Source: Clostridium sp. 12(A) (GTDB lineage: Bacteria; Bacillota; Clostridia; Lachnospirales; Lachnospiraceae). From it: a DNA stretch of 64,000 bases. The notes under the pieces were generated by a model that saw only the letters and a list, made by a program, of their open reading frames with translations, was not told the origin of the DNA and did no database searches. The stretch is taken from positions 1-64,000 of the forward strand of contig JAGI01000002.1 in NCBI GenBank assembly GCA_000526575.1, given 5' to 3'. Positions 44,572 through 63,723 of the stretch are shown here, piece after piece (the first letter of the stretch is position 1; each line of letters opens with the position of its first letter). The translations under genes and the position numbers were made by a program.

Positions 44572-46308
44572 TTAGTCCTCCTTCTTTCCATTGGTCTGAG
44601 ACTGGTAAACTTCGTAATAGATTCCCTTGTGTGCAAGCAATTCTTCATGGGTTCCCTGCTCCGAGACCTTACCGCCATCTAAAACAATGATCTGGTCTGC
44701 ATCTTCCAAAGAAGAGGTTCTCTGTGCAATGATGATTTTGGTTGTTTCGGGAATCTCTTCACGAAGTGCCTTCCGAATCATGGCATCGGTCTTTGTATCG
44801 ACTGCAGAGGTGGAATCGTCCAAAATGAGAATCTTAGGTTTTTTTAATAAGGCCCGTGCGATACAGAGCCTCTGCTTCTGTCCACCTGAAACATTGGTTC
44901 CGCCCTGCTCTATATAGGTATCATATTTGTCAGGGAACTGCTGAATGAATTCATCTGCCTGTGCCAGCTTACATACTCTCACAAGCTCTTCGTCACTGGC
45001 GTCTTTCTTTCCCCAACGGAGATTTTCCTTGATTGTTCCGGAGAATAAGACATTTTTCTGTAATACGACTGCGACCTCATCACGGAGGGATTCCAGATCA
45101 TAATTTCTCACATCGACTCCGCTAACACAGACCTTGCCCTCTGTGACATCGTAAAGTCTGGAGATCAACTGAATCAAGGATGTTTTGGAGGAACCGGTTC
45201 CTCCAAGGATGCCAATGGTCTGCCCCGATTCAATATCCAAATTGATATTCACCAATGCAGGTTTTTTGCTCTTTTCAGAGTAGCTGAATGAAACATTCTC
45301 AAACTGAATCCTTCCGTTCTTTACCTCCGTCACACCATTTTTAGGAGAGGTTAATGTACTTTCATGATTTAAAACCTCACAGATACGACTGGCCGATTCT
45401 TTTGCCATGGAACAAATAACGAAGACCATGGATAACATCATGAGGGAGGAGAGAATCTGCACCCCGTAGTTGATTAATGAAGATAACTGTCCCGTTGTTA
45501 ATTCTGCTGCACCACTGTTTATGATAGTCTTCGCTCCAATAAAGCTTACAAGAAAGATAGCAAGAGAAATACAAAACATCAGAATGGGATTGTTCAAAGC
45601 AATAATTCTCTCCGCTAATGTAAATTCCTTACACACATCAGCGGCTGCCTTTTGAAACCGTTCTCGTTCATAGTCCTCTCTTACGAAAGATTTCACAACA
45701 CGAATACCTTGTATATTTTCCTGAACCGAATTATTCATAGCATCATATTTCTTAAAAATGCGTTTAAAAATAGGAAATACAGTAAATACAATTGAAAATA
45801 ATGCAACGGCTGCAAAAGGGATCATAATTAAAAAGATGAGGGACATTTTCACGCTAATTGTCAGACTGAGAATGACTGAAAAAATAAGCATAAGCGGAGT
45901 TCTTACTGCAATCCGGATAATCATTTGATATGCATTCTGTACATTGGTCACATCCGTTGTCATTCTTGTGACCAAAGATGAGGTGGAGAACTTATCGATA
46001 TCGGCAAAAGAAAAGTCTTGTATTTTAAAAAATACATCCTGTCTTAAATTCTTGGCAAAGCCACAGGATGCAGTGGCACCAATCCTTCCTGACATGTACC
46101 CAAATAGCAGGGATAACATTGCCATAATAATTAACATAATTCCATAACGTATTATTGGTATCATTGATTGTCCAGTCATTTTATCAATTAAATTAGCCAT
46201 GACCAGAGGTAATAAGCATTCTAATATTATTTCCAACGTTATATATAATGGCGTTAAAATAGAGGCTCTTTTATATTCTCTAATACTCTTCATCAGCGTC
46301 TTTATCAT
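44572..46308 (-). CDS. ABC exporter half-transporter, subunit with degenerate site
   Basis: A 578-residue half-transporter: six helices (~15-300), then an ATPase domain with Walker A GGTGSSKTS, signature VSGGQKQRL and Walker B ILILDDSTSAVD. The residue after Walker B Asp is Asp rather than Glu, which marks the subunit that contributes the non-hydrolysing site in heterodimeric exporters. The H-loop is also changed: IIAQRTSS has Gln for His. ATG 46306-46308 is used because AAAGGAGAAAGTAAC precedes it; ten more codons exist upstream without a site. Promoter TTGACT-17-TAAAAT is just upstream. It is the first gene of the operon. Confidence 0.9.
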   Translation of the reverse strand: MIKTLMKSIREYKRASILTPLYITLEIILECLLPLVMANLIDKMTGQSMIPIIRYGIMLIIMAMLSLLFGYMSGRIGATASCGFAKNLRQDVFFKIQDFSFADIDKFSTSSLVTRMTTDVTNVQNAYQMIIRIAVRTPLMLIFSVILSLTISVKMSLIFLIMIPFAAVALFSIVFTVFPIFKRIFKKYDAMNNSVQENIQGIRVVKSFVREDYERERFQKAAADVCKEFTLAERIIALNNPILMFCISLAIFLVSFIGAKTIINSGAAELTTGQLSSLINYGVQILSSLMMLSMVFVICSMAKESASRICEVLNHESTLTSPKNGVTEVKNGRIQFENVSFSYSEKSKKPALVNINLDIESGQTIGILGGTGSSKTSLIQLISRLYDVTEGKVCVSGVDVRNYDLESLRDEVAVVLQKNVLFSGTIKENLRWGKKDASDEELVRVCKLAQADEFIQQFPDKYDTYIEQGGTNVSGGQKQRLCIARALLKKPKILILDDSTSAVDTKTDAMIRKALREEIPETTKIIIAQRTSSLEDADQIIVLDGGKVSEQGTHEELLAHKGIYYEVYQSQTNGKKED

Positions 46309-46347
46309 GTTACTTTCTCCTTTACATTTGTTTTTCAAACGAGTATT

Positions 46348-46376
46348 ATTTTATTGAACTATGGTTGTTTAGTCAA
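46348..46376 (-). promoter_or_regulatory. Promoter of the ABC exporter operon
   Basis: On the minus strand TTGACT (46371-46376), exactly 17 bases, TAAAAT (46348-46353). Its spacer overlaps one arm of an inverted repeat that may be the TetR operator. Confidence 0.65.
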
Positions 46377-46403
46377 TGGTCAATGATTATATTTTGTTCA
46401 ATA
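46352..46403. promoter_or_regulatory. Candidate operator arms for the TetR regulator
   Basis: TATTGAAC (46352-46359) and its exact inverse GTTCAATA (46396-46403) lie in the divergent promoter region; one arm overlaps the exporter promoter. The 36-base separation is longer than a usual single TetR site, so these may be two half-operators or chance. Confidence 0.3.
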
Positions 46404-46474
46404 TGAGACGAATTTAAGAAAGCGTTGATTATCTCTTGATAAATGAATCAATTTAATTGGAGGATGGGGGCTAT

Positions 46475-47008
46475 ATGAAAGAAGATTTGAGAGTTGTTAA
46501 GACAAGAAGAAACATAAAAAGTGAAATGATGGAACTATTACAGAAAAAGCCTGTAGAAAAGATTACGGTTACTGAGCTTGCCTCCCAGGCTTTTATAAAC
46601 AAAGGGACATTTTATCATCATTACTCCGATATTTATGATTTATATCACGAACTTGTGTCTGATTTTATTGAGAACACGATCGGTTCCCTTGATTATTATG
46701 AAGAGTTCTTTACAGAACCAGAACGTTTTCTTCAAAAATTTCTTTGTGATTTCAGGGTAAATGACATAAAGAAAACATTTCCCTTTTATACGGAGGGAAC
46801 TCATAGTCTTTTCCTGCCATACTATGTAACGGAAGTACTTCTAAATAGGCTTATGTCTGTAAACTATGTGGAAAATACTATTGAAAATCGTGTAAAAGTT
46901 CAATGCTGTATTACTGCCATGACAGCAACAAAGGCTCATTTTGATGAGGCATATAATAACATTATTGTTAAGGTTGTTAGTAAGATGATTCGTTCAACAT
47001 TTGAGTAA
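46475..47008 (+). CDS. TetR/AcrR-family transcriptional regulator
   Basis: The 177-residue protein begins with a TetR helix-turn-helix (~8-55: NIKSEMMELLQKKPVEKITVTELASQ, INKGTFYHHYSDIYDLY). The C-terminal ~110 residues match the TetR_C_7/DhaS-like ligand domains of clostridial regulators. ATG 46475 with GGAGGATGGGGGCTAT upstream is used; a TTG further up has no better site. The gene is divergent from the ABC exporter operon and ends in a terminator, so it most likely represses that exporter and is released by its substrate. The ligand is unknown. Confidence 0.88.
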   Translation: MKEDLRVVKTRRNIKSEMMELLQKKPVEKITVTELASQAFINKGTFYHHYSDIYDLYHELVSDFIENTIGSLDYYEEFFTEPERFLQKFLCDFRVNDIKKTFPFYTEGTHSLFLPYYVTEVLLNRLMSVNYVENTIENRVKVQCCITAMTATKAHFDEAYNNIIVKVVSKMIRSTFE

Positions 47009-47032
47009 AAATTAATGATATTATGAATGAAC

Positions 47033-47066
47033 AGCCATAGGGTCAAAGCTCTATGGCTATATTTTT
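47033..47066. terminator. Bidirectional terminator between TetR and LysR genes
   Basis: AGCCATAG pairs with CTATGGCT around a ten-base loop, followed by ATATTTTTA on the plus strand. The two neighbouring genes are convergent. Confidence 0.7.
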
Positions 47067-47098
47067 ACCTAAATTAGTTACATCTTCCATATAGAAGG

Positions 47099-47995
47099 TC
47101 AAGCATTACAGCTTTTGGAATATTCGTCCGCCACCTCCAGTAATTTCTCAATACAATCGTTGGATTCCCTGTTATAAAGGCATGTCACCCTAAAATAATC
47201 CTCAAATCCCGTCAAAGGAACAAAACGCACCGTGTCATTAGCAAACTGCTTCATATGACTGGCAAGAAGAGAGATGCCAATCTGGCAGTCTACCATGAGC
47301 ATCATATTAAGAAGAGAGTTAGCCTCGTAGACCGTATTTGGAGAAAAGCCTTCTTTTGAATAAATGTTGTCGATTAAATTGTGGTCGGTTCTGGAAAACT
47401 TTGGATCCATATGGATAAATGGCTCGTCCTTAATCATGGTGAGAGAGACGGATTTAAGCTCTGAAAATTTGTGGCTTTCAGGAAATACCACGCACATGTG
47501 GTCTGTGAAAACAGTCTTTTTTAAAATATGAGGCGGGCAGTCGATCTCGATATCCGGCAGGATGGCAACATCGATCTGTCCGCTTATTAAAGTTTCCATA
47601 ATGTGATTGTAGGTGTAGTCCATGGGATTGACCTTGATGGTTGGGTAAAGCTCATGGAACCGCTTGATAAGCTTAGGGAAATGATGGACAAGGGCAGTGC
47701 CTAAAAGACCGATGCTTATGACTCCTGTTGTCCCATTTTCCAAGTCTTTTACTTTTTTTACAGCAGAATCATAAGAGTGGAGGGTCCTTTTTATTTCATG
47801 GTAAAAAACCTTTCCGGTAGGAGTCAGTTTTACCTCCCTTTTGTTTCGTATGAAAAGCTGGGAACCGATGGAGTGCTCCAAGTTGAGGATCAGCTTGCTA
47901 AGGGTCGGTTGGGTGATGTGAAGCTGCTGGGAAGCCTTTGTGTAACTGAGGGTTTCAGCCAGGACAATAAAGTATTCTAATTGAAAAAGGTTCAT
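47099..47995 (-). CDS. LysR-family regulator of the phloroglucinol operon
   Basis: A 298-residue LysR-type protein: N-terminal winged helix (MNLFQLEYFIVLAETLSYTKASQQLHITQPTLSKLI) and a two-lobe ligand-binding domain (~90-295) of the CysB/BenM kind. Start ATG 47993-47995 follows GGAGAGTGTAA. It is divergent from the dehydrogenase gene across 241 bases, the classical LysR arrangement, so it probably activates the phloroglucinol operon in response to phloroglucinol or an intermediate. The inverted repeat ATTAC-A-GTAAT at 48111 is a candidate site. Ligand assignment is inference. Confidence 0.88.
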   Translation of the reverse strand: MNLFQLEYFIVLAETLSYTKASQQLHITQPTLSKLILNLEHSIGSQLFIRNKREVKLTPTGKVFYHEIKRTLHSYDSAVKKVKDLENGTTGVISIGLLGTALVHHFPKLIKRFHELYPTIKVNPMDYTYNHIMETLISGQIDVAILPDIEIDCPPHILKKTVFTDHMCVVFPESHKFSELKSVSLTMIKDEPFIHMDPKFSRTDHNLIDNIYSKEGFSPNTVYEANSLLNMMLMVDCQIGISLLASHMKQFANDTVRFVPLTGFEDYFRVTCLYNRESNDCIEKLLEVADEYSKSCNA

Positions 47996-48110
47996 TTACA
48001 CTCTCCATTTCACTAAAAAAGTCTCATATTTACTCAACTATCATATCATAAATTCTCTTAAAAATCTCAATAACCCCTAAAATCATAGTCAAAATACATG
48101 AAAAAATGTT

Positions 48111-48121
48111 ATTACAGTAAT
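48111..48121. promoter_or_regulatory. Candidate LysR box
   Basis: ATTAC-A-GTAAT is a perfect inverted repeat in the LysR/dehydrogenase intergenic region, roughly matching the T-N11-A core of LysR sites. It is 115 bases from both genes. A computed motif search against orthologous regions would be needed to support it. Confidence 0.35.
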
Positions 48122-48236
48122 GAAAATTATCAATTTATTATAAAAACAAAAGGATGATACACTGGAATTACGATGTGAAGACGTGACAAATGCGAATTCA
48201 TGGTCACAGGGAAGAAAGAGAAAGAAGGTGTTACAT

Positions 48237-49181
48237 ATGATTCAAACGATTGCCGTCATAGGAGCCGGTACCATGGGGCATGCCATTGCGGGATGCTTTG
48301 CCTTATATGGATATCATGTTTCCATATACGAAAGCTTTGAAGAGGTACGAAGTACCTGCAAGGAAAAAATCAGAAAACAGTTTGAATTTCTCCAGGAGGA
48401 AGGGCTGATGGAGCCAGCCAAAGCAGAACCATCTTTGGCTAACATAGAGACCTATGATGATCTTGAGTCCGCCGTAAAGGAGGCAGATTATATTATTGAA
48501 GCCATTCCGGAAAGACTGGATTTAAAGCAGCAGCTTTTTGAGAGCCTTATTAAGCATGCACCCGCTGACGCGATCATCGCCAGTAACACATCAAGCATAG
48601 GGTTTTCAGATTTAACTGCCAATATGGCTGAGAAGGATAAAGCCAGGACCATGGTATGCCACTGGTATAACCCGGCTCATTTAATTCCTCTGGTGGAGCT
48701 GTCATTTTTCGGAAATATGCCGGAAAGCCGCTATCAGGAGGTGGAGGACCTTTACCGCTCCATTGAGAAACGTCCGGCAAAGGTAAAAAAGGACATTCCT
48801 GGACTTTTAGCCAACCGGATACAGCAGGGAATTGCAAGAGAGGTATTTTCTCTCATGGCTATGGGAGCGGCTGATCCAAAGGATATAGACACCGCTTTAA
48901 AATACGGACCGGCTTTTCGATATGCCACCACAGGACAGCTTGAGGTGACGGATTTCGGCGGGCTGGATATCTGGTGCACAGTTGGAGATAACCTCTTAGC
49001 TGTTATGGACCGGTCGGCAGAGGCAAGTCCACTGCTTCGGCAAAAGGTCATGGAAGGGAAGCTGGGCTTTAAGACGGGAGAGGGGTTCTTTACCTATCCG
49101 GAGGAGGAAAAGCAGGAGCTTCAGAATCAGTTTCATAAGCGTCTGATCAGGCAGCTTAAGGCCAGCAAGAATTACGATTAA
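48237..49181 (+). CDS. 3-hydroxyacyl-CoA-dehydrogenase-family, likely 3-hydroxy-5-oxohexanoate dehydrogenase
   Basis: A 314-residue dehydrogenase: N-terminal Rossmann motif AVIGAGTMGHAIAG, EAIPERLDLKQ and the ASNTSSIGFSDL segment of the 3HCDH family, C-terminal helical domain from ~185 (VKKDIPGLLANRIQQGIAREVF). Family members oxidise 3-hydroxyacyl-CoA, but those in phloroglucinol clusters oxidise free 3-hydroxy-5-oxohexanoate to 3,5-dioxohexanoate (triacetate) with NAD+ (HOHNDH). ATG 48237 has AAGGTG seven bases upstream; an upstream in-frame ATG gives 18 unrelated residues. First gene of the operon. The pathway role follows from its neighbours; carnitine-dehydrogenase-like activity is an alternative. 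Confidence 0.8.
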   Translation: MIQTIAVIGAGTMGHAIAGCFALYGYHVSIYESFEEVRSTCKEKIRKQFEFLQEEGLMEPAKAEPSLANIETYDDLESAVKEADYIIEAIPERLDLKQQLFESLIKHAPADAIIASNTSSIGFSDLTANMAEKDKARTMVCHWYNPAHLIPLVELSFFGNMPESRYQEVEDLYRSIEKRPAKVKKDIPGLLANRIQQGIAREVFSLMAMGAADPKDIDTALKYGPAFRYATTGQLEVTDFGGLDIWCTVGDNLLAVMDRSAEASPLLRQKVMEGKLGFKTGEGFFTYPEEEKQELQNQFHKRLIRQLKASKNYD

Positions 49182-49214
49182 AAGCAGAAAAATATATAAC
49201 ACGGAGGGGAAATT

Positions 49215-49562
49215 ATGATAAAGAGAACCATGGAAGAATTAAAAACCTACAACGCCCCAGGCCACTTCGGTATGACGGCTATGAGAATTCATGGGAAAGA
49301 GGAGACAGGAGCGGAGAAGTTCTGGATGGGGCTATCCACCTTTTTACCAGGTGGCGGTGCGGAATATGCCTATGAAGATAATCCCTTAGAGAAGGTCTAT
49401 TACGTCCTGGAAGGGGAAATGACGGTGACGGACAAAGCAGGGACGAAGTATGTGGTTCATCAGAACGAAAGCATTTCCTTAAGGCCCAATGAGGGACGGT
49501 ATTTAGTCAATGAATCCAACCGTCCGGCAAGTATGCTGGTCATCATCAACTATCCGGAATAG
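49215..49562 (+). CDS. Single-domain cupin protein
   Basis: A 115-residue protein with a single cupin barrel: GGGAEYAYEDNPLEKVYYVLEGEMTV for motif 1 and NEGRYLVNESNRPASMLVII near motif 2. Motif 1 lacks the usual second His (GxHxHxE reads GGGAEYAYEDN), so metal binding may be altered or absent. It is 33 bases after the dehydrogenase and 15 before the reductase, so it is tightly embedded in the phloroglucinol operon. Its role is unknown; it might bind or stabilise a reactive diketone or enol intermediate, or be a sensor. I would not assign an enzyme activity. Confidence 0.8.
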   Translation: MIKRTMEELKTYNAPGHFGMTAMRIHGKEETGAEKFWMGLSTFLPGGGAEYAYEDNPLEKVYYVLEGEMTVTDKAGTKYVVHQNESISLRPNEGRYLVNESNRPASMLVIINYPE

Positions 49563-49577
49563 GAGGAAGAAATACAT

Positions 49578-50366
49578 ATGGTAAGCAAGGAATTTATGGG
49601 GGATTTATTTGACGTATCCGGCAAGGTTGCTCTTGTGACGGGAGCCACAGGAGCTTTGGGAAAAGCAGTCTCCATCGGTTACGGGCTGGCTGGAATGAAG
49701 GTCATGGTCACGGGACGCAAGGAAGAAACCTGCAAAGCGCTTTGTGAGGAGTTAAAGACACAGGGCATTGAGTGCGGATATTCCACAGGGGATCCGGCAG
49801 TGGAAACAGATGTCATTAAGGTGGTAAAGGATACCATCACCACATTTGGGGAAATCAACGTGCTGGTGACGGCAGCAGGATATAATAAGCCTCAGCCTAT
49901 TATAGAACAGGATTTATCAACCTGGAAGCAGATTATGGATTCCGACGTTCAGGGAACCTGGCTTTTTTGCAAATATGCAGGCGAACAGATGATTAAGCAG
50001 GGCAAGGGAGGAAAGGTCATTATGGTTTCCTCTGCCCGCTCCAAGATGGGCATGGCAAATTATACAGGTTACTGCACCGCAAAGGGCGGCATTGACTTAA
50101 TGGCTCAGTCTCTGGCCTGTGAGTGGACGGCGAAATATCACATCAATGTTAACACCATTAACCCTACGGTGTTCCGCTCTGACTTGACGGAGTGGATGTT
50201 TGATCCGGAAAGTGCTGTTTACCAGAATTTCTTAAAGCGGCTTCCCATCGGACGTCTGGGCGAGCCGGAAGATTTTGTGGGACCCTGCATTTTCCTGGCA
50301 TCAAAGGCCAGCGATTTCATGACAGGGGCCAATGTGGCAACAGACGGCGGGTATTGGGCCAATTAA
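49578..50366 (+). CDS. SDR-family reductase, likely phloroglucinol reductase
   Basis: A 262-residue short-chain dehydrogenase: NAD(P)-binding TGATGALG near residue 22, NAG-type AAGYNKPQ, catalytic Ser in VSSARSK and Tyr165-x3-Lys169 in TGYCTAKGG. In anaerobes the NADPH-dependent reductase of phloroglucinol to dihydrophloroglucinol (PGR) belongs to this family and sits beside a cyclase, BKACE and 3HCDH gene, exactly as here. TGRKEE after strand 2 (Arg in TGRK) fits NADPH preference. SD AGGAGGAAGAAATACAT. The alternative is a generic 3-oxoacyl-ACP reductase-like or gluconate dehydrogenase; context favours PGR. Confidence 0.82.
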   Translation: MVSKEFMGDLFDVSGKVALVTGATGALGKAVSIGYGLAGMKVMVTGRKEETCKALCEELKTQGIECGYSTGDPAVETDVIKVVKDTITTFGEINVLVTAAGYNKPQPIIEQDLSTWKQIMDSDVQGTWLFCKYAGEQMIKQGKGGKVIMVSSARSKMGMANYTGYCTAKGGIDLMAQSLACEWTAKYHINVNTINPTVFRSDLTEWMFDPESAVYQNFLKRLPIGRLGEPEDFVGPCIFLASKASDFMTGANVATDGGYWAN

Positions 50367-50425
50367 TTGGAGCCAAACCATTAAAACATACATAAATATA
50401 AAGTTAAATTTGGAGGTATACACCC

Positions 50426-51361
50426 ATGAGCAAGAAAGTATTTGTTGACTTAACCCATCCATTCAGTGCTGATATTCCCCGCTGGCCATATTTTGATAAG
50501 CCAGTCATTGACAATAAACATTCCCTGGCAAAGGGCGGTGTTCTCACCCAGTACATAGGCTGTACCATGCATACCGGAACCCATTGCGACGCGCCAAGAC
50601 ACGTCATGGAAAAGGAATTTGACGGGAAGCGTGCCCGTTATACTCATGAGATGCCTGTCGACGCTTATACCGGAGACGCTGTCTGTCTGGAAATTGAGAT
50701 TGAAGCCTGGGGGCTTATTACAGGTAAGCATTTGGAAGATGCATGCAGAAGAGCCAATATCAAACCAGAAGAACTGGAAGGCATGATTGTCTGCTTAAAC
50801 ACAGGAATGCACCGCAAGTTTGACGATTCCAAGGAGTATTACCATTATTCCTGCGGCACCGGTATTGAAGCCGGAAAATGGTTTGTGGAGCACAAGGTAA
50901 AATGTGTTGCCATGGATATGCAGGCCTTAGACCATCCCCTACACACCGCTATGGGCAACAACGGCATGACAAGAATGAATTTACTCGGCGCTTCCGGTAG
51001 ACCCATCACCGAGGAATATATTGAGAAATTCGGTGAGGAGGCCTATGCGGAATTCGATAAGGAATTGTACATCAAGCTTCACGGCAAGGAGGCTTATGAC
51101 AAGAAGTTCGGTGAACTGGAAGAGATCGGATGCTGGGGCACCTGGGAGCCATGTCATAAGGAAATGCTGGGACACGGTATTGTGGGTGTGGAGAACTTAG
51201 GCGGCAATTTAGATAAAGTTTCCGGAAAACGGTTCCGTTTTTATTGCTTCCCTCTCCGCTGGTACTTAGGCGACGGTTCCATGGCCCGTTGTGTGGCAGA
51301 AATCGAAGAGGATGATTTAAATGATGTTCCTGAAAGAACCTATCAGTATGGAGGATTTTAA
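50426..51361 (+). CDS. Cyclase-family hydrolase, likely dihydrophloroglucinol cyclohydrolase
   Basis: The 311-residue protein has the cyclase (PF04199-type, kynurenine-formamidase-like) metal motif HTGTHCDAPRH (His49 to His59) that binds divalent metals and activates water, and further conserved regions GTGIEAGKWFVEH and MQALDHPLHT. In phloroglucinol degradation a family member (DPGCH) opens the dihydrophloroglucinol ring to 3-hydroxy-5-oxohexanoate. It is longer than formamidases (about 210-260) with a C-terminal extension (~210-311) of its own. SD TTTGGAGGTATACACCC. The next gene's ribosome binding site lies in its last codons. A ring-opening role is from family and context. Confidence 0.85.
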   Translation: MSKKVFVDLTHPFSADIPRWPYFDKPVIDNKHSLAKGGVLTQYIGCTMHTGTHCDAPRHVMEKEFDGKRARYTHEMPVDAYTGDAVCLEIEIEAWGLITGKHLEDACRRANIKPEELEGMIVCLNTGMHRKFDDSKEYYHYSCGTGIEAGKWFVEHKVKCVAMDMQALDHPLHTAMGNNGMTRMNLLGASGRPITEEYIEKFGEEAYAEFDKELYIKLHGKEAYDKKFGELEEIGCWGTWEPCHKEMLGHGIVGVENLGGNLDKVSGKRFRFYCFPLRWYLGDGSMARCVAEIEEDDLNDVPERTYQYGGF

Positions 51362-51362
51362 C

Positions 51363-52196
51363 ATGGGAGATTTGAGCAATAAGGTGATTCTGACCGTAGC
51401 CACTACAGGCGCCTGGCCCACAAAAGAAATCACCCCCTACGTGCCCATTCAGCCTGCAGAGATCGCAGAAGAGGTTTACGCCTGCTGGAAAGCCGGAGCC
51501 TCCATGGCCCATATCCACGTAAGGGATGACGAAGCGAAAGCTTCCATGGATTACAGTAAATTCGAAGAGACTGTCCGCCTCATCCGTGATAAGAAGGATT
51601 GCGACATTGTGTTAAATTTAACAACCTCAGGAGGAATCGGATTAGACGATGAGATGAGAATCAGGCCCTTTAAAGAATTAAAGCCTGAGCTGGCTTCCTA
51701 TGACTGCGGCTCCATGAACTGGCAGAACAACTGCGTATTTGAGAACAGTCCTGCCTTTTTAGAAAAACTCGGCAACACCATGCAGGAAGCCGGTGTGAAG
51801 CCTGAAATTGAAATATTTGATGTCGGCATGATTTACAATGCCCTTTATTATTTAAAAAAAGGTGTCTTAAAAGCGCCTCTTCATTTTCAGTTCGTCTTAG
51901 GCGCGGCAGGAGGAATGCCTGCTACCGTAGAGAATCTGGTTTATTTAAAAAATCTCATACCCGAGGACTCCACCTGGAGTGCCCTTGGTATTGGGAAAGG
52001 CCATCTTCCTATTCTATACACAGCTCTGGCCCTTGGAGGAAATATCCGCGTGGGCATGGAAGATAACATCATGTACGGAAGGGGTGAGCTGGCAAAATCT
52101 AATGTGGAATTTGTGGAACGGGCAAAACGCATCATTCATGAATTCGGTAAAGAGGTAGCCACACCAGAGGAAACCAGACAGATTCTTGGTGTGTAG
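51363..52196 (+). CDS. BKACE (DUF849) enzyme, likely triacetate acetoacetate-lyase
   Basis: A 277-residue TIM-barrel beta-keto acid cleavage enzyme: zinc motif HIHVRDD (His50, His52), Glu in EIEIFDVGMI and the later ALGIGKGHLPIL and GGNIRVGMEDN. BKACE enzymes cleave beta-keto acids with acetyl-CoA, giving acetoacetate or acetoacetyl-CoA and a truncated product. In the phloroglucinol pathway (TAL) triacetate plus acetyl-CoA becomes acetoacetyl-CoA and acetoacetate. ATG 51363 is used with GGAGGATTTTAAC upstream, inside the cyclase stop region, one base after its stop, so translation is coupled. Other BKACE substrates (dehydrocarnitine, keto-aminohexanoate) are less consistent with the neighbours. 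Confidence 0.88.
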   Translation: MGDLSNKVILTVATTGAWPTKEITPYVPIQPAEIAEEVYACWKAGASMAHIHVRDDEAKASMDYSKFEETVRLIRDKKDCDIVLNLTTSGGIGLDDEMRIRPFKELKPELASYDCGSMNWQNNCVFENSPAFLEKLGNTMQEAGVKPEIEIFDVGMIYNALYYLKKGVLKAPLHFQFVLGAAGGMPATVENLVYLKNLIPEDSTWSALGIGKGHLPILYTALALGGNIRVGMEDNIMYGRGELAKSNVEFVERAKRIIHEFGKEVATPEETRQILGV

Positions 52197-52217
52197 CAAG
52201 GGAAGGGAAGAGAGAAC

Positions 52218-53396
52218 ATGAAAGAAGTAGTTATCGTAAGTGCTGCCAGGACAGCCATCGGCAGCTTTGGCGGCAGTCTTTTAGCCATCCCGGCGGTGGA
52301 ATTAGGAACTATAGCAGCAAAGGGTGCAATGGAACGGGGCCAAATAAAACCGGAACAAATAGATGAGGTCATTGTAGGAAATGTATTAAGTGCAGGCCTG
52401 GGGCAAAACGTGGCACGTCAGATATCCTTAAAGGCAGGAATTCCAGTGGGGATTCCTGCCATGGGAATCAGCAAGGTCTGTGGGTCAGGCTTAAGAGCAA
52501 TCACCCTGGCCACCCAGATTATTAAAGCTGGAGATGCAGACATCATCCTGGCAGGCGGAGCCGAGAGCATGTCAAATGCTCCCTATGTCTTAAGGAATCA
52601 CCGGTTGGGGCACAAGATGGGGAATGAAACTTTAGTGGATACCATGATTCAGGACGGACTTTGGGATGCATTTAACGATTATCATATGGGCGTCACAGCA
52701 GAAAATATTGCTAAGAGGTACAATATCACCAGACAGGAGCAGGACGCGTTTTCCGCAGAAAGCCAGCAAAGGGCTCAAAAAGCCATAGAAGCAGGCCGCT
52801 TTAAAGAAGAAATTGTTCCGGTTTCCATCCCAGTAAAAAAAGGTGAGCCAAAGATTTTTGATACCGACGAATTTCCCAGGTTTGGAACTACAGAAGAAAC
52901 CCTTTTAAAGCTTCGGCCATCGTTTTTAAAAGAAGGTACCGTTACCGCGGGCAACGCATCCGGCTTAAATGATGGGGCAGCCATGGTGATTCTTTGCTCC
53001 AAAGAAAAGGCTGAGGAATTAGGGTTACCGGTTATGGCACGGATTACGGGCTATGGCTCCGCAGGCGTGGAGCCGGAAGTTATGGGACTTGGCGTTGTGC
53101 CGGCTGCAACACTTGCCATGAAACAGGCCGGTATCACCTCGAGTGAGCTTGATTTGGCAGAAGCAAACGAAGCATTTGCAGCCCAGGCCATAGCGGTGTG
53201 CCGTGATTTAGGACTTGACCCGGCAAAGACGAACGTAAATGGCGGCGCCATCGCCTTAGGCCACCCAATCGGTGCATCCGGAGCAAGAATCCTGACCACC
53301 CTCCTTTATGAGATGGAGAAGCGGAATGCAAAAAAGGGCCTTGCCACCTTATGTATTGGCGGTGGAATGGGTACAGCAATCGTAGTGGAACGATAG
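52218..53396 (+). CDS. Acetyl-CoA acetyltransferase (thiolase)
   Basis: The 392-residue thiolase has the acyl-accepting Cys88 ([12 protein letters not shown]), His349 ([10 protein letters not shown]) and the second Cys379 (CIGGGMG), with the [10 protein letters not shown] motif. It would split acetoacetyl-CoA with CoA to two acetyl-CoA, the last step of phloroglucinol degradation; the reverse reaction also feeds butyrate formation. ATG 52218 with AAGGGAAGAGAGAAC upstream. It follows BKACE by 21 bases and precedes the CoA-transferase by 11 bases. Family identification is firm; direction in the cell is inferred. Confidence 0.95.
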
Positions 53397-53407
53397 GAGG
53401 AATGCGC

Positions 53408-54067
53408 ATGAAACAAGTTTCGACCCAGGAAGCGGTCGCTTCCATCAACGACGGAGCCATAATCATGATTGGAGGTTTCATGTCAAATGGAACTCCGGAA
53501 ATCCTGATTGATGCGCTGATAGAGAAAGATTTAAAGAATTTAACCATTATTGCAAATGACGGAGGTACTCTTGACACAGGAATCGGCCGTCTCATTAAAA
53601 CGGGAGCGGTCAGCCGTCTGATTGCCTCCCACATCGGCTTAAACCCGCTGACCGGACAGCTGATGAACGAGGGTAAGATGGAGGTGCAGCTTGTGCCCCA
53701 GGGAACTCTCGTAGAACAGATTCGTGCGGGAGGAGCAGGCCTTGGAGGCGTACTGACCCCTACAGGACTGGGGACGGAGATAGAAGAGGGGAAGCAGGTG
53801 ATTGAAGTGGATGGGAAGAACTTTATCCTTGAAAAGCCCCTAAAAGCTGATTTTGCTCTGATTCGTGCTTCGGTTGCCGATGAGAAAGGCAATTTATTTT
53901 ACCGGGCTACCACCAGGAATTTCAATCCCATGATGGCAACAGCGGCAGAAACAGTCATTGCAGCTGCCGAAGAGATTGTGGAAGTAGGAAGCATTCAGGC
54001 AGAAAGCGTAGCCACGCCTGGAATATTCGTGGACTTTCTTGTAGGAGGAGAACCTTATGTCGATTAA
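53408..54067 (+). CDS. atoD: Acetoacetate/butyrate CoA-transferase subunit A (AtoD-like)
   Basis: A 219-residue CoA-transferase alpha subunit: GAIIMIGGFMSNGTPE N-terminus with the family glycine-rich loop, GAGLGGVLTPTGLGTE (the conserved GxGGFLTPTGxGT) and the end EEIVEVGSIQ. It pairs with the beta subunit, whose start lies 11 bases before this stop. The pair moves CoA from acetyl- or butyryl-CoA to acetoacetate, needed to activate the free acetoacetate made by the BKACE step. ATG 53408 has AGGAGGA six bases upstream; an earlier in-frame start would overlap the thiolase gene. Confidence 0.92.
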   Translation: MKQVSTQEAVASINDGAIIMIGGFMSNGTPEILIDALIEKDLKNLTIIANDGGTLDTGIGRLIKTGAVSRLIASHIGLNPLTGQLMNEGKMEVQLVPQGTLVEQIRAGGAGLGGVLTPTGLGTEIEEGKQVIEVDGKNFILEKPLKADFALIRASVADEKGNLFYRATTRNFNPMMATAAETVIAAAEEIVEVGSIQAESVATPGIFVDFLVGGEPYVD

Positions 54068-54704
54068 GGAAACCATAGCAAGGCGTGTGGCAAAGGAGTT
54101 AAACGACGGAGATGTGGTGAATCTAGGAATAGGGCTTCCCACTATGGTTGCTGATTATATACCGGAGGGAATGACGATTCATCTCCAGTCTGAAAATGGA
54201 ATACTGGGTATGGGACCTGTGCCTGGAGCCGACGGCTATGATTCCAATATCGTCAATGCAGGAGGAAAACCTGTGACCGTGGAACATGGAGCCAGCTATT
54301 TTGACAGCGCGTTTTCTTTTGCTATTATACGAGGTGGACACGTGAATGTAACCGTTTTGGGAGCGCTGCAGGTGGATAAGCAAGGAAGCCTTGCAAGCCA
54401 TATTATACCTGGCAAGATGGTTCCGGGCATGGGGGGAGCCATGGATTTGGTTACAGGCTCTAAAAAAGTAATCATAGCCATGACCCACACAGCAAAGGAC
54501 GGTTCTCCTAAGATATTAAATAACATCACACTGCCCCCCACCGCAGTTTGTAAGGTCCACATAATAGTGACAGAGCTTGCTGTCATTGAAGTGACAAAGG
54601 AAGGCCTTCTCCTTACGGAGGTTTCTGTACATACAACGCCAAAAGAGGTGGCCGCAAAGACAGAAGCACCTCTCATTATGGCAGAAAACATTGGGCGCTT
54701 CTAA
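54057..54704 (+). CDS. atoA: Acetoacetate/butyrate CoA-transferase subunit B (AtoA-like)
   Basis: A 215-residue beta subunit with the catalytic glutamate motif SENGILGMGP (Glu in ENG forms the CoA thioester), VNLGIGLPTMVADY and GAMDLVTGSKKVI. The start overlaps the alpha subunit by 11 bases with GTAGGAGGAGAACCTT upstream. Together they form an alpha2beta2 or alpha4beta4 enzyme that couples acetoacetate activation to acetate release. It ends the core pathway; after it comes a 108-base gap before the PhlG-like gene. Confidence 0.92.
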   Translation: MSIKETIARRVAKELNDGDVVNLGIGLPTMVADYIPEGMTIHLQSENGILGMGPVPGADGYDSNIVNAGGKPVTVEHGASYFDSAFSFAIIRGGHVNVTVLGALQVDKQGSLASHIIPGKMVPGMGGAMDLVTGSKKVIIAMTHTAKDGSPKILNNITLPPTAVCKVHIIVTELAVIEVTKEGLLLTEVSVHTTPKEVAAKTEAPLIMAENIGRF

Positions 54705-54812
54705 CATGTTATGGAGCTTGAATTATTTAGTAAAATGAATTATAAATAGAGTTTAAAGAAACAATTGGGGTTTCTAATACCAACAATAAAATTAAGAACA
54801 GGAGATTGGAAT

Positions 54813-55604
54813 ATGGGGAAAAAAGTGGGCGTAAGCCAGGAAGAAAAGAACTTATCCTATTACAAATTTTTTGAACGACCTATGGCAGAGATTCCAGAGG
54901 AAAAACTGGCTCTGTTAGAAGGTCAGGGGGACAGGAAACCAGGAGTTCCATTTGAAAAAAGAAACCTCTATCTTGCCGGGGATGATGAAGCATACTGCCA
55001 GAGCGGCTATGGTGTCCATGAAGATGGTACTGGCTACGTATGCAATACCACCTACATGCCCGGAGTCACAGGAGAGATGCTGGATTGGTGGTTCCCATGG
55101 CATAGTGTAGGTTCTGATCTCCGTTATAAAATCTGGGACCCTGAGGATCATTGTTTTGCCAGAGCTGACCGCCCGGATTACGTCTGTGACCCGTTGGTCC
55201 CAATGAGGGAGAAGACATGGGGGGTCAACCACTACATAATGGAAGACATAGGCCCTGGTTTTGAATTCCTTAAGCTGTGCTTTAAAAGTCCGGCTGACTT
55301 TGGTTATGATTCCGCCATCGTCGGAAGTAAAGCCTGTGAGTCCCTGATTTGTGCCATCGGAGAGGGCTCCTGTGCCGCTGCCATGACTCATAAATGGTAC
55401 CCCTGTGAGGGAGGGGTGATGTTCTGCTCCCGCTTCTGGATCGGCTTTAAAATGGAACAGGGAGTCATGAAAAAAGCCCTGCCTGAAGGCGTAAAGGTCC
55501 CGGAAATCGTTACAAAAAGTCTTTTTGCCCACAACATTAAGGAATTTTCCAATCTGGCAGCCATTTTGCCGGAAGTGTACGCTCAGAACAAAGATAGTTT
55601 CTAA
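54813..55604 (+). CDS. PhlG / phloretin-hydrolase-like C-C hydrolase
   Basis: A 263-residue protein resembling the PhlG (2,4-diacetylphloroglucinol hydrolase) and Eubacterium ramulus phloretin hydrolase family, Zn enzymes that cleave the C-C bond between an acyl group and the phloroglucinol ring. Candidate ligands sit in the right segments: WWFPWHSVGSDLRYKIWDP (His97), YIMEDIGPG (Glu144), MTHKWYPCEGG (His193, Glu199). The fit with the neighbouring pathway is striking: its product would be phloroglucinol. ATG 54813 has CAGGAGATTGGAAT upstream. Its stop overlaps that of the convergent PucR gene by three bases. The acyl substrate (phloretin from flavonoids, or diacetylphloroglucinol) is not determined. 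Confidence 0.82.
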   Translation: MGKKVGVSQEEKNLSYYKFFERPMAEIPEEKLALLEGQGDRKPGVPFEKRNLYLAGDDEAYCQSGYGVHEDGTGYVCNTTYMPGVTGEMLDWWFPWHSVGSDLRYKIWDPEDHCFARADRPDYVCDPLVPMREKTWGVNHYIMEDIGPGFEFLKLCFKSPADFGYDSAIVGSKACESLICAIGEGSCAAAMTHKWYPCEGGVMFCSRFWIGFKMEQGVMKKALPEGVKVPEIVTKSLFAHNIKEFSNLAAILPEVYAQNKDSF

Positions 55605-57118
55605 AAATCCATGACCCGAAAGGAAAATTCATAGGAAAAAAGAATCTGTGCATTGGCGGGATCGAATGACGTCAAGTCTGCAATTTTACCGATGCGGTAA
55701 AAAAAGGTGCTTTTATGTATATGAAGGTAATTGGAAGTATTTAAGGCATTGCGGTTATTTAAAAAATAAGCCTTTAACGTTTTTATATATTCTGTATTAT
55801 TTTCCTGGTCATATTTTTGCAGAAACAAAAGATCCGGGTGAATGATGGTCTCAGCATTGATGTCATTTTGAGCGGCCTCCAGAAGATGGTTCAAATAGTT
55901 GTCTTCGTAATTGAGACAGCGCTCCTTCCTCACACATTTTTTATTCTTCAACATGAATATGACCTGGTTATAATAACGCCAGGTGTCCAGAATTTTTTCG
56001 AACCGATAACTGATTGCAGCATTAATCTGGTTCAGTTGTAGAAAATGAGTCAGCTTATGTTTGTCAATTGACTGATAGGGGTCTTTGTAGCTACTGGTGT
56101 GCAAAAGAATTACAGTCCCTTTGTAAAAGAAAGCCATGCTGTGTTTAAAAATTCCTGATAGCTGGTCTATATAGTAATTGGGGTTCAACTGGTGGTTGGA
56201 AAAACCATGAAAGGTGAATCCCAGCACCCAGAAGTACTGGTAAAAAGGTTCCCCCAGTTGTACTAAGTGCCGAACTGCAATGGTCTCACTGTGCAGATTC
56301 TGCTCTATTAAGTCGGTTAAGAAACACTCATATTTCAAACCTGTTTTTTCTGCATAACACTCAGCCTTTTGCATTTCTAAGGATATCAGCTTTGATAAAT
56401 TCATAACAAAGGCACTGTCCGCAGCTTCAAAGGGGCGGTAAAGGGAGCTTATACATAAGTATCCGACAGCGGCACGTCTGATATGGATGCTGCAAAAAAG
56501 GTAAGCGATTCCGGGAGAATCATCAATTTCCACAACCATGGGAGAGGAAGAGGTGAATAAATGCTGAAGAACCTCTTTTTCTTTCATATTCCGAATAAAC
56601 TCATTTTTTAGATAGAATTTCTTTTCATAAACATCAAATTTATCATCAAAACGTTCTTTCGGGCTGGAGGCAAGGACGGAAAAGCTTGTGGTACATAAGG
56701 TTATGGGGTTATTCAGATAGGACCTTGCCGTGTCAAGCATACTCTGGTAACCATATCCTGCCTGCAATACTTGAAAAACTTCATCAATTTTTAAATCTGC
56801 TTTGCGGCTGGCATATAATTCCTGTTGTATGCAGTTTAGGACCGCAAACGAGTCCAGGTCTTCGTTGATGTATAATCGGCTTAAGTCTTTACACTCCCCA
56901 CAGCAGTTGAGTAATAGAATGCAACCGTCTGGAATGGGAGGAGGAAAATCCTTATAATTTCCTATGTAAAGGGTATGGGGGTCAAGGGGTAACTGGTCGT
57001 CATGAGGAGGCAGCAGGTAATAAACACTCTCTATCCGCTGGTCGGAAAAAACGGGTCCATGAACATGAATCTGAAAGGTATCTTGAATATTTCTTATAAT
57101 AGTTTCTAAACAAGCCAT
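55601..57118 (-). CDS. PucR/CdaR-type transcriptional regulator
   Basis: The 505-residue protein has an N-terminal sensory region, a middle GAF-like region (~130-250) and a C-terminal PucR helix-turn-helix (HTH_30) in TLKAYFLNNRNALNTSNYLHIHKSTFFYRIGKI. Such regulators activate catabolic operons (purine, sugar acid, xenobiotic). ATG 57118 is chosen with AAAAGGAGATAAA upstream, rather than the 27-codon longer frame. It is divergent from the flavoprotein operon across ~230 bases and tail-to-tail with the PhlG-like gene, so it most likely controls the flavoprotein operon. Ligand unknown; a polyphenol derivative is plausible. Confidence 0.85.
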   Translation of the reverse strand: MACLETIIRNIQDTFQIHVHGPVFSDQRIESVYYLLPPHDDQLPLDPHTLYIGNYKDFPPPIPDGCILLLNCCGECKDLSRLYINEDLDSFAVLNCIQQELYASRKADLKIDEVFQVLQAGYGYQSMLDTARSYLNNPITLCTTSFSVLASSPKERFDDKFDVYEKKFYLKNEFIRNMKEKEVLQHLFTSSSPMVVEIDDSPGIAYLFCSIHIRRAAVGYLCISSLYRPFEAADSAFVMNLSKLISLEMQKAECYAEKTGLKYECFLTDLIEQNLHSETIAVRHLVQLGEPFYQYFWVLGFTFHGFSNHQLNPNYYIDQLSGIFKHSMAFFYKGTVILLHTSSYKDPYQSIDKHKLTHFLQLNQINAAISYRFEKILDTWRYYNQVIFMLKNKKCVRKERCLNYEDNYLNHLLEAAQNDINAETIIHPDLLFLQKYDQENNTEYIKTLKAYFLNNRNALNTSNYLHIHKSTFFYRIGKIADLTSFDPANAQILFSYEFSFRVMDF

Positions 57119-57347
57119 TTTATCTCCTTTTTGATTAAGACAACTGTAGGAAATGATCCCATCCATATGAGAAAAATATTCGATAACTGTTGGAAGCATC
57201 TTCTATTATATCATGTTACTATTTTAACAAGTACCAATAAATAAGTATTTTATAGATAGTTACATAACAGAGATATTTACAGAGGTATTAAAACGTTACT
57301 TTCTATGATTGTACTAAATTTTATAAAAATAGAAAAGGAGAATATGT

Positions 57348-58292
57348 ATGTCAGTAAAAATTTTAGGAGTCAGTACGGGGCGTAAAAACAGCAATTGTGA
57401 TATTTTGTTAAAGGAGGCACTTCTTGCATGTCAGGAGGAGGGAGCCGATGTTACAATGATCAATTTGAGAGATTACAACATCATAGATTGTACCGGATGC
57501 ACTTCATGTACTATAGGCATGTCACAAGGAAAAAACACGGGCTGTGTACTAGATGAAAAGGACGATAAGAAGAGAATTATGGAAGTGCTGTTAAAAGCTG
57601 ACGGTGTTATTTTTGCAGCTCCCACCTATGACTTACAGGCGTGTTCCGTATTTGCAAAGTTTGCCCAGAGAAGCTTAAGCTATGAGAACGCATTTCTTGA
57701 GTCCATTGGAGCAATTGAGCACAAGGACAGAGTCAGCGCTTTGATCGCTGTAGGGGGGTCTACCCGTTCCTGGCAGTCTATGGCGCTGGAATCCATGCAG
57801 GCAGCAATGTTCACATCGGACTTTAAAGTTGTAGATATGTATCTTGCGACCAGAGTGCCAGCTCCGGCTCAATGTCTCCTTCATGACGATATGTTAGAAC
57901 GGATGGTGCAAATGGGGAAAAACATTATGACTGCAATCCAGACTCCTGTGGAAGAGCGCAAATGGCTGGGAGAGGAAGACATGGGTTGGTGTCCGAATTG
58001 CCATTCCAATGCGCTGATTTTGGGAGAGGTGCAGTGGGATGGACTCCATTTTCCCGTCGAATGCCAGGTATGCGGTGCCGGTGGAACCCTTGAAAAAGCA
58101 GAGGGTGGAAAGTGGAAATTTGTAATTCAAGAGGATGGGCTTATCAGAGACCGCACCACACTGGAAGGCAGAGGACATCATCTGGAAGAAATTATACATA
58201 CACAGGGTGGGTTCTTCTCTGATCCAGAGAAACGAAAAATCGCCAAAGAAAAGTTAGAAAAATACAAAAACTTAAATTTTAAAACCATATAA
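57348..58292 (+). CDS. Flavodoxin-fold NAD(P)H:FMN reductase-like protein with C-terminal zinc-ribbon-like domain
   Basis: A 314-residue protein: N-terminal flavodoxin-like FMN domain (ILGVSTGRKNSNCDILLKEAL, ~1-190, with DGVIFAAPTYDLQACSVF as phosphate/FMN region) having the TGCTSCTIG Cys pair typical of clostridial FMN reductase relatives, followed by a CPNC..CQVCG four-Cys segment (~218-250) resembling a small zinc ribbon or rubredoxin-like site. It could pass electrons between the NADH module and the FAD protein next door. SD AAAAGGAGAATATGT. First of four genes spaced 24, 41 and 12 bases apart. Exact partner and reaction are unknown. Confidence 0.8.
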   Translation: MSVKILGVSTGRKNSNCDILLKEALLACQEEGADVTMINLRDYNIIDCTGCTSCTIGMSQGKNTGCVLDEKDDKKRIMEVLLKADGVIFAAPTYDLQACSVFAKFAQRSLSYENAFLESIGAIEHKDRVSALIAVGGSTRSWQSMALESMQAAMFTSDFKVVDMYLATRVPAPAQCLLHDDMLERMVQMGKNIMTAIQTPVEERKWLGEEDMGWCPNCHSNALILGEVQWDGLHFPVECQVCGAGGTLEKAEGGKWKFVIQEDGLIRDRTTLEGRGHHLEEIIHTQGGFFSDPEKRKIAKEKLEKYKNLNFKTI

Positions 58293-58316
58293 ATACGAAG
58301 AGACGGAGGTATTTCA

Positions 58317-59798: not shown

Positions 59799-59839
59799 TG
59801 TCTTAGAATCTGAGCGCTGATCCGTTCAATGGAGGAAAT

Positions 59840-61930: not shown

Positions 61931-61942
61931 GAGGAACAAAGG

Positions 61943-63031
61943 ATGATGGATATAATTATTTGCAATGCAGTGCCGGCTTATCATGAGGCACCTGTTTCTC
62001 CTAAGCTTTTAAACGATAACAAGGAAAAAGTCTTGGAAGCGTTATTTAAGAAACCTGCCAGTAATCGATATCTGATAGTACCAAAAGACGGTTGGGGCTG
62101 GGATAAACCTGAGGGCCTGACAATTATCGAGGCCAGTCATAAATCCGGTTTTACTTATGGAAATTTATCTGCCTTAAAAAAGGTATCAGAGGGAGAAAAA
62201 ACCATTCCACTATGCCGTAACGATGCGTTTACGGCGGGGGAAAGCATGGTGGTAACGGTTGAAGAATTGCTAAATGCCGGGAAAAAGAACGTATACGTTG
62301 GAGGTAAGGCAGAGAATAAGGGGATTCTTGATTTTGGAAGGATAACAACTCCGGCAGAAATACTAGCTTCCTCTGGTGTACAGGGGAATTTTAAGGCAAT
62401 GTACTTCGGTCATCCAATGGGAATCTTTATCAATGAAACCATGTTGAATCAACCCATGGAACTAACCACGGATTATATTGAAATTCTGAACGAGACAGAT
62501 TGCATGCTGGATTTTCTTCTTAAGACCGCAGACAGATACGGAAAAGAAGCTTGTGGAAGATGTTTATTTGGTCATGAAGGTGTATTTCAGATACGCATGT
62601 TTTTAACGGATATGACCTTAAAAAAAGGGAAAATATCCGATCTGGACCTAATGTTAGAATTATGCCATGAGATGCAGCAGCAGTCTCTGTGTGAGGCGGG
62701 TGTTTCCATTGCCAATACGGTGGAGAGTGCTCTTGAGCATTTCAAAAGTGAGATAGAAGAACATATCACAAGGAAAAGCTGTAAAGCAGGAGTGTGCCAG
62801 AAGTTTTTAACGTTTCATATTCTGCCTGATCTGTGTACTGGCTGTAATGAATGCTCGGATGTTTGTGAGGATGATGCCATTCTTGGGAAAAAGAAATTTA
62901 TCCATATCATCGACCAGGAAGAATGCTCCGGGTGTGGTGATTGCATAGATGCCTGTGAGGAGAAAGCAATTATAATAGCAGGAGTAGTTAAACCCAAATG
63001 TCCTAAAAAGCCAATACCATGTAAAAATTAA
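61943..63031 (+). CDS. NuoF C-terminus-like protein with two ferredoxin clusters
   Basis: A 362-residue protein with SLBB-like/NuoF features in the middle (AEILASSGVQGNFKAMYFGHPMGIFI) and a Cys segment (CGRCLFGHEG) that resembles the 4Fe-4S motif of NuoF (CGxCxPCR) but with Leu-Phe-Gly in place of the later Cys, then a C-terminal 2[4Fe-4S] domain (CTGCNECSDVC and CSGCGDCIDAC). It lacks the NuoF N-terminal FMN/NADH domain, so it cannot be a full NADH dehydrogenase subunit. Start ATG follows AGGAGGAACAAAG. Last gene of the operon, followed by a terminator. Likely the electron wire between the Fe-S flavoprotein and the FAD reductase. Confidence 0.8.
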   Translation: MMDIIICNAVPAYHEAPVSPKLLNDNKEKVLEALFKKPASNRYLIVPKDGWGWDKPEGLTIIEASHKSGFTYGNLSALKKVSEGEKTIPLCRNDAFTAGESMVVTVEELLNAGKKNVYVGGKAENKGILDFGRITTPAEILASSGVQGNFKAMYFGHPMGIFINETMLNQPMELTTDYIEILNETDCMLDFLLKTADRYGKEACGRCLFGHEGVFQIRMFLTDMTLKKGKISDLDLMLELCHEMQQQSLCEAGVSIANTVESALEHFKSEIEEHITRKSCKAGVCQKFLTFHILPDLCTGCNECSDVCEDDAILGKKKFIHIIDQEECSGCGDCIDACEEKAIIIAGVVKPKCPKKPIPCKN

Positions 63032-63054
63032 AAGATAGTATATCGTTTTATAAA

Positions 63055-63100
63055 GACAGAAAGCAAGCCGAATCATTCCCGGTCTTTGCTTTCTGTTTTT
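63055..63100 (+). terminator. Terminator of the flavoprotein operon
   Basis: ACAGAAAGCAA pairs with TTGCTTTCTGT (18-19 base loop), followed by T4. It lies just after the last Fe-S gene and just before the convergent lipoprotein stop. Confidence 0.8.
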
Positions 63101-63107
63101 ATGAAAC

Positions 63108-63711: not shown

Positions 63712-63723
63712 ACTGTGCCAATA

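Follow-up and report, generated by a model that had tools for sequence, protein, structure and literature searches.

Layout of the locus

The DNA analysed here (the window) comprises positions 1–64,000 of contig JAGI01000002.1 (C2) from the 4.6 Mb genome of Clostridium sp. 12(A). It contains two neighbouring gene sets, the first resembling operons for anaerobic phloroglucinol degradation and ending in a gene for a PhlG-like hydrolase, and the second starting with a gene for a flavone reductase (FLR)-like protein. The first set consists of nine closely packed genes on the plus strand (48237–55604) with a divergent LysR gene, and the open reading frames and Pfam matches agreed with a preliminary description of this DNA on the order and families of these genes. 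The second set (57348–63031) follows a PucR-type regulator gene on the opposite strand, and encodes the FLR-like protein, the flavoprotein FadR, a NuoG-GltD fusion and a NuoF-like protein. The gene starts given below are the most likely ones, judged from translations and ribosome-binding sites.

47099–47995, minus strand: LysR-type regulator (HTH_1 and LysR_substrate), at the same position in 6/6 other cyclase-bearing genomes of the genus
48237–49181, plus strand: predicted 3-hydroxy-5-oxohexanoate dehydrogenase (TfD/3HCDH) of an alternative clade (3HCDH in Pfam; best PDB match 4om8)
49215–49562, plus strand: cupin without the usual metal histidines (Cupin_2)
49578–50366, plus strand: predicted phloroglucinol reductase (PGR), a short-chain dehydrogenase/reductase (adh_short; 59.3% identity to 5g4k)
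50426–51361, plus strand: predicted dihydrophloroglucinol cyclohydrolase (DPGC; Cyclase in Pfam; W20 and Y22)
51363–52196, plus strand: predicted triacetate acetoacetate-lyase (TAL) of the BKACE family (358.7 bits; Trp at the Kce Glu14 site)
52218–53396, plus strand: acetyl-CoA acetyltransferase (thiolase; Pfam, NCBIfam)
53408–54067, plus strand: acetate/acetoacetate CoA-transferase subunit A (ctfA; Pfam, NCBIfam)
54057–54704, plus strand: acetate/acetoacetate CoA-transferase subunit B (ctfB; Pfam, NCBIfam)
54813–55604, plus strand: C-C hydrolase of the PhlG/phloretin hydrolase family (DAPG_hydrolase, 228.6 bits; zinc ligands)
55601–57199, minus strand: PucR-type regulator separating the first set from the second (HTH_30 in Pfam)
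57348–58292, plus strand: FLR-like ene-reductase (sole PDB match 7d38/39/3a/3b)
58317–59798, plus strand: FadR, an FAD flavoprotein of the fumarate reductase superfamily (FAD_binding_2; nearest NCBIfam model vinyl phenol reductase)
59840–61930, plus strand: fusion of NuoG-like Fe-S and GltD-like NAD(P)H-FAD parts, proposed electron entry (Fer2_4, NADH-G_4Fe-4S_3, Fer4_Nqo3, Fer4_20, Pyr_redox_2)
61943–63031, plus strand: NuoF-like Fe-S protein (NADH_4Fe-4S, Fer4)

The gaps within the nine-gene operon range from −11 to 105 bp, with 3 bp to be added to those preceding ctfA and PhlG when the starts listed here are used, and every family was supported by Pfam (3HCDH, Cupin_2, adh_short, Cyclase, BKACE, Thiolase, CoA_trans twice and DAPG_hydrolase, with LysR alongside). 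The cyclase was present at 96–100% identity in 7/24 genomes of the same genus searched, counting our own, and the order LysR-TfD-cupin-PGR-DPGC-TAL-thiolase-ctfAB-PhlG-PucR was kept in all six others carrying it, which rules out co-location by chance. The nearest named relatives by the cyclase are [Clostridium] aerotolerans (100%), of which strain DSM 5434 (L037) shows this same layout, and Lacrimispora species (96–98%). There were no Rfam matches in 46000–64000, promoter-like sites were at the level of shuffled sequence (31 found, 28.4 expected), and terminator-like sites were above it (27 versus 16.3 expected), with most of them falling inside genes.

The probable phloroglucinol operon

Residues were tested against the signatures published for the Clostridium scatologenes pathway (PMC10470551). 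In place of the Eubacterium ramulus Phy and Fcr and of the C. scatologenes proteins themselves, we compared the sequences with solved structures and named relatives, and with residue numbers from the literature. All four genes for the conversion of phloroglucinol, encoding PGR, DPGC, 3-hydroxy-5-oxohexanoate dehydrogenase and TAL, were co-located by open reading frames, Pfam and PDB matches. An alignment of 258 residues gave 59.3% identity between the predicted PGR and the 5g4k chain, which we take to be the PGR of Clostridium BAA-442. A similar comparison, of CsPGR with the BAA-442 enzyme, gave 59.54% identity (PMC10470551). The DPGC carries W20 and Y22 in place of the isatin hydrolase Ile/Leu, with W.Y found within the first 60 aa in 77/80 named relatives, and its PDB matches were weak and to cyclase-family proteins. 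Trp occupies the Kce Glu14 site of the TAL, as it does in 54/58 TALs of named loci, and this rules out the BKACE protein being the 3-keto-5-aminohexanoate enzyme of lysine degradation. The remaining steps to acetyl-CoA are covered by the thiolase and the CoA-transferase, judged by their Pfam and NCBIfam families.

The preliminary description had assigned the dehydrogenase to a characterised family, which held for its 3HCDH membership and its catalytic Ser/His/Asn, while its position in the tree was outside the main TfD clade. It belongs to a separate clade (10 sequences, support 1.0), which has a weak grouping (0.435) with its best PDB match (4om8, 5-formyl-3-hydroxy-2-methylpyridine 4-carboxylate dehydrogenase). 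The step may represent a parallel recruitment. The equivalents of the CoA-binding residues K56/N221 are absent, which excludes a fatty-acid 3-hydroxyacyl-CoA dehydrogenase.

Two observations count against the assignment of the operon. The position of the published TR(S/N) cofactor motif of PGR reads TGRK in the window and TGRN in 5g4k, and among 63 PGRs of named loci (at least 50% identity) there were 18 with TGRN, 14 with TGRS, 12 with TGRK, 5 with TARN, 3 with TGRG and 11 in which the pattern was not found. The TAL falls below both NCBI cut-offs, with 316/382 for Kce and 233/430 for the dioxohexanoate transferase. The latter, together with the separate dehydrogenase clade, could indicate an operon for the breakdown of a different cyclic 1,3-diketone or 3-hydroxy-acid, with the short-chain dehydrogenase, cyclase and BKACE proteins merely resembling those of the phloroglucinol pathway; we consider this highly improbable, as all four steps occur together with signature residues, the PGR is ~59% identical to a solved one, and the PhlG-like protein would supply phloroglucinol. 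The preliminary assignment of these genes to anaerobic phloroglucinol degradation as in C. scatologenes, with the operon complete, is thus supported by family membership, most residue signatures and synteny, and this prediction from the genes is very probably correct. The likeness to the C. scatologenes pathway (PGR-DPGC-TfD-TAL, available text of PMC10470551) includes the four enzymes, the thiolase, the CoA-transferase, W20/Y22 and the Trp for Glu14, so that the same chemistry, with each of the four steps having an established activity in homologues from other systems, would be expected; the differences are the dehydrogenase clade, PhlG as last gene and a conserved cupin.

The cupin gene was found in 56/80 named cyclase loci, and in 29/37 of those of at least 20 kb, where all 29 adjoin a pathway gene. 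The protein has invariant Lys60 and Arg95 where TM1459 carries histidines, and the structure model (pLDDT 95) placed it nearest in fold to TM1459, and also to the DddK and RemF cupins, a resemblance which suggests no particular function. The word 'cupin' is absent from the main text of PMC10470551, and literature on phloroglucinol and cupins, judged by titles and the openings of abstracts, contained none on this pathway. A conserved cupin lacking the metal histidines thus represents an extra member without an assigned role in a pathway thought to be complete.

The PhlG-like hydrolase

The final gene of the operon encodes a protein with a match of 228.6 bits to DAPG_hydrolase (PF18089, cut-off 22.7), which in the PDB matched the Mycobacterium abscessus phloretin hydrolase (5xe5, E 3e-21, 79.0 bits) and PhlG (3hwp, E 3e-16, 62.5 bits). 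Alignment showed that H129, E160, H270 and E274, which we take to be the zinc ligands of PhlG, are kept along with Tyr121, and the PhlG-like gene noted earlier at the operon end is confirmed by these ligands and the PF18089 match.

As the family contains the 2,4-diacetylphloroglucinol hydrolase 3hwp, the substrate could be a microbial or plant acylphloroglucinol (acetylphloroglucinols, hop acids and the like) and not a dihydrochalcone, with FLR and FadR being accessory. The identity of only 38% to the best PF18089 protein of Catenibacillus scindens (L135; L-numbers are labels of fetched loci and G-numbers of genomes, our own being G000), which we assume to be the product of the predicted phloretin hydrolase gene of that species, is in line with such a substrate. 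C. scindens turns phloridzin into 4-HPP, and a phloretin hydrolase gene has been predicted for it (PMC11170127). We nevertheless judge an acylphloroglucinol of this type to be distinctly unlikely, since the phloretin hydrolase outscores 3hwp, Asn132 of PhlG is Ala in the window and no aligned relative has Asn there, the gene is linked to FLR, and Tyr229 is Phe in the window and in 42/50 relatives aligned, including the PhlGs adjoining Fcr-like genes ('Fcr-like' being defined by family and position, not by identity to E. ramulus Fcr). We regard it as likely that the protein would free phloroglucinol from an acyl compound resembling phloretin; weighing against this are a score of 70.5 on the NCBI equivalog model for DAPG hydrolase (NF047887), which has a 600-bit cut-off, and an identity of only 25–41% to the PhlGs adjoining Fcr-like genes. 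For the earlier proposal that acylphloroglucinols are taken to acetyl-CoA, the phloroglucinol half stands by families and residues, while the acyl half, given the 38% identity and the 70.5 of 600 bits, has a putative substrate only.

In 14/80 named cyclase loci fetched, a PhlG gene lies no more than 10 kb from the cyclase, six of the 14 being of the Lacrimispora type, and a PF18089 match over the cut-off occurred in 20/26 genomes reached via cyclase loci, versus 20/299 in a sample of the family. The preliminary description had also proposed that flavonoid cleavage is joined to ring degradation in this locus; the gene set is indeed present, but this type of combination is already known, given these 14 loci and the phloroglucinol clusters of Mycobacterium, which likewise include a gene of the phloretin hydrolase family (PMC10470551, accessible part). 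The window differs from the Mycobacterium clusters in its FLR/FadR/NuoGF set, none being described for them in the same part of that source. These genes, absent from the preliminary description, are the stronger link to flavonoids.

A second, remote PhlG-like gene (PF18089, 42 bits) lies elsewhere in the genome (C2, ~123.8–141 kb; L036:9796-10662, L235), followed by an MFS-like gene and ~10 kb from a second set encoding FadR (46%), NuoG/GltD (51%), NuoF (32%) and an FLR-like protein with W149, H271 and I275 kept. Two other Lachnospiraceae (L180:8428-10866 and L181:8676-11129) carry a PhlG domain at the C-terminus of a fumarate reductase-type flavoprotein (FAD_binding_2, Succ_DH_flav_C and DAPG_hydrolase), and a standalone relative of this flavoprotein adjoins PhlG in L073, L071, L258, L259 and L263. 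Outside the two gene sets, the window contains a row of secreted-looking proteins with a common C-terminal module (30772–40341), which by eye resemble plant-polysaccharide esterases and glycosidases, and past its end an OYE-family gene is followed by an amidohydrolase_2 gene (contig 66.8–69.2 kb; L035:2754-4199, 4211-5224), possibly a pair acting on aromatic compounds.

The FLR-FadR-NuoGF set and the proposed route

The only PDB match of the FLR-like protein at E ≤ 0.01 was to Flavonifractor plautii FLR (E 1.6e-28), the structure codes of which are 7d38/39/3a/3b (PMC7862272, accessible part). Identity was 32.7% over 278 aligned positions of a 291-residue fragment, with W149, H271 and I275 kept, as well as V144, G146 and S147; the comparison rested on at least 30% identity and the first three residues, and not on the 80% coverage rule as PMC7862272 computes it. 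According to the available text of that study, the FLR mutants G106A, W149A, H271A and I275A had reduced or lost activity, 11 further putative FLRs (homologues of at least 30% identity) all converted apigenin, and FLR did not use NAD(P)H directly, with the complete electron transfer chain left to explore. The module may be decaying in L028 (genome G023 of the same genus, which L042 indicates to be Lacrimispora xylanisolvens), as its FLR-like gene is split in two and FadR is separated from NuoG-GltD by an additional ~1.6 kb.

FadR contains FAD_binding_2, and its nearest curated family is the vinyl phenol reductase VprA (NF053717); at 332.4 bits against a cut-off of 600 it is not a member, and it further differs by its Fe-S partner genes. 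It was rejected as a fumarate reductase (flavocytochrome c3), as the catalytic Arg and the carboxylate-binding His/Arg (presumably R402, H504 and R544) are replaced in comparison with 1qo8, also in the nine FadRs aligned. The NuoF-like protein had no Pfam match to the FMN/NADH domain of NuoF, most of its cysteines are invariant across seven sequences aligned, and NuoF and FadR form one protein in two Lachnospiraceae genomes (L174, L179). A full-length Fcr-type homologue (OYE plus pyridine-nucleotide domain) was not found in our genome with the C. puniceum Fcr-like protein, and not E. ramulus Fcr, as query (best 33%, residues 7–351), and an OYE gene 11 kb downstream (contig 67363–68121, L035) was rejected as Fcr, being 34% identical over query residues 131–392 only.

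The order PhlG-FLR-FadR-NuoG/GltD-NuoF was found in Proteocatella sphenisci (L183), Alkalibaculum sporogenes (L184) and Tissierella pigra (L253), and Clostridium sp. DSM 17811 (L079) has PhlG-FadR-NuoG/GltD-NuoF without FLR, directly before cupin-PGR-DPGC. Together with that of the window, the FadR set adjoins PhlG in five genera; FadR is 79–82% identical in these four loci, and PhlG 33–49%. Neighbours were counted at 6.5 kb and 9 kb in 40 PhlG loci with fetched flanks, leaving out six other Lacrimispora-type loci of the same layout, L065 (a near-copy of L057) and L073 (the same place as L249); the count covers part of the PF18089 matches, those without wide flanks being mostly low-scoring. 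Within 6.5 kb, FLR, FadR and Fcr-like genes were each found in nine loci, with FLR accompanied by FadR in four and by an Fcr-like gene in five, never alone, and with no locus having both FadR and an Fcr-like gene. Within 9 kb there were 11 FLRs, of which five were with FadR, six with an Fcr-like gene and none with neither. The hypergeometric chance of this FLR pattern is 1.8e-4 (6.5 kb) or 1.4e-5 (9 kb) if loci are independent, and since several share a genome or genus these values are not true probabilities. W149/H271/I275 are kept in 10 of the 11 FLRs, that of L266 keeping H271 only. In C. intestinale (L255), PhlG is accompanied by an FLR 72% identical to that of the window and an Fcr-like gene at the place of FadR, and the grouping of PhlG, Fcr-like, NuoG-GltD, NuoF and FLR genes in C. 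puniceum (L256) hints that NuoGF is able to serve FLR.

Several observations speak against a shared flavonoid function of the two gene sets. The FMN contacts M10, S14, N15, I89, E91, K92 and D103 of FLR are R, N, C, T, D, L and Q in the FLR-like protein, and at G106 one alignment has Ser and another a gap, the latter also present in the FLR-like proteins adjoining Fcr-like genes in L250-L252 and L255. None of FLR, FadR and Fcr-like genes was within 6.5 kb in 22/40 PhlG loci, and the zero overlap of FadR and Fcr-like genes is weak by itself (0.07). PhlG was absent from the wider flanks of FLR-like genes 44–93% identical to that of the window in 9/9 loci fetched (L237-L241, L245-L248), of which L237, from genome G013 of the same genus, retains FLR and PucR, while its 20 kb of fetched sequence contains neither FadR nor phl genes. 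FadR sets without adjoining PhlG exist, two of them in our own genome, and because FadR has paralogues (46–49%) elsewhere in this genome, one of them (C2:1557027) with neither FLR nor PhlG adjoining, FadR-NuoGF may act on other phenolic alkenes. Taken with the PucR regulator dividing the two sets and the vinyl phenol reductase as nearest NCBIfam model of FadR, the additional FadR-NuoGF sets and the FLR-like genes without PhlG would fit a different arrangement, in which the phloroglucinol operon and phloretin-type hydrolysis are one function, and FLR-like/FadR/NuoGF a neighbouring, separate reductase operon for other plant phenolics (hydroxycinnamates, vinylphenols, isoflavones). We consider two separate functions unlikely, though less so than the alternatives above, as PhlG directly precedes FLR-FadR-NuoGF in Proteocatella, Alkalibaculum and Tissierella, and for this reason belongs to both sets.

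We therefore lean, with considerable reserve, towards a locus whose two operons together would take flavones or dihydrochalcones to acetyl-CoA, with FadR-NuoFG replacing Fcr between FLR and PhlG. The FLR-like protein, for which activity is established in homologues from other systems, would reduce the C2-C3 bond of a flavone to give a flavanone. Electrons would pass from NAD(P)H via the GltD-like FAD domain, the NuoG-type Fe-S clusters and the NuoF-like protein to FadR, which would reduce flavanone/chalcone, forming phloretin or a similar dihydrochalcone. The zinc-dependent PhlG-like hydrolase, of a family (PhlG/Phy) also active in other systems, would then release the acyl chain as an arylpropionate, leaving phloroglucinol. 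PGR would form dihydrophloroglucinol, DPGC 3-hydroxy-5-oxohexanoate, the 3HCDH protein triacetate, and TAL acetoacetate and acetoacetyl-CoA, with the CoA-transferase and thiolase catalysing the last steps to acetyl-CoA. The acyl substrate of PhlG, the substrate of FadR, the electron path and the cooperation of the two operons are what we infer from these genes and their neighbours. More tentatively, and at less than even confidence, FadR, NuoG-GltD and NuoF may constitute an undescribed NAD(P)H-fed Fe-S flavoprotein complex, a non-homologous substitute for Fcr in making dihydrochalcones from flavanone/chalcone, that is also the electron donor of FLR. The flr-fcr-phy cluster of Clostridium butyricum (PMC11868195, accessible part) similarly has adjoining FLR, reductase and phloretin hydrolase genes, with the FAD-dependent, alpha/beta-barrel Fcr being replaced in the window by FadR, NuoG-GltD and NuoF, and phloroglucinol genes being added. 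In titles and the openings of abstracts among the papers listed, with most subscription papers and all supplements beyond reach, neither FLR nor phloretin hydrolase was linked with a fumarate reductase-like protein or Nuo subunits, and a word search of PMC7862272, PMC10470551 and PMC11868195 gave no 'fumarate'.

The phloroglucinol half of the locus is a further member of a described pathway, and the proposed FadR-NuoGF half is the new part. If correct, the proposal would identify both the dihydrochalcone-making reductase of bacteria that have FLR and PhlG but lack Fcr, and the protein that reduces FLR. Genome surveys based on Fcr could then detect more flavonoid degraders, and a single locus would allow for the conversion of flavone to acetyl-CoA.

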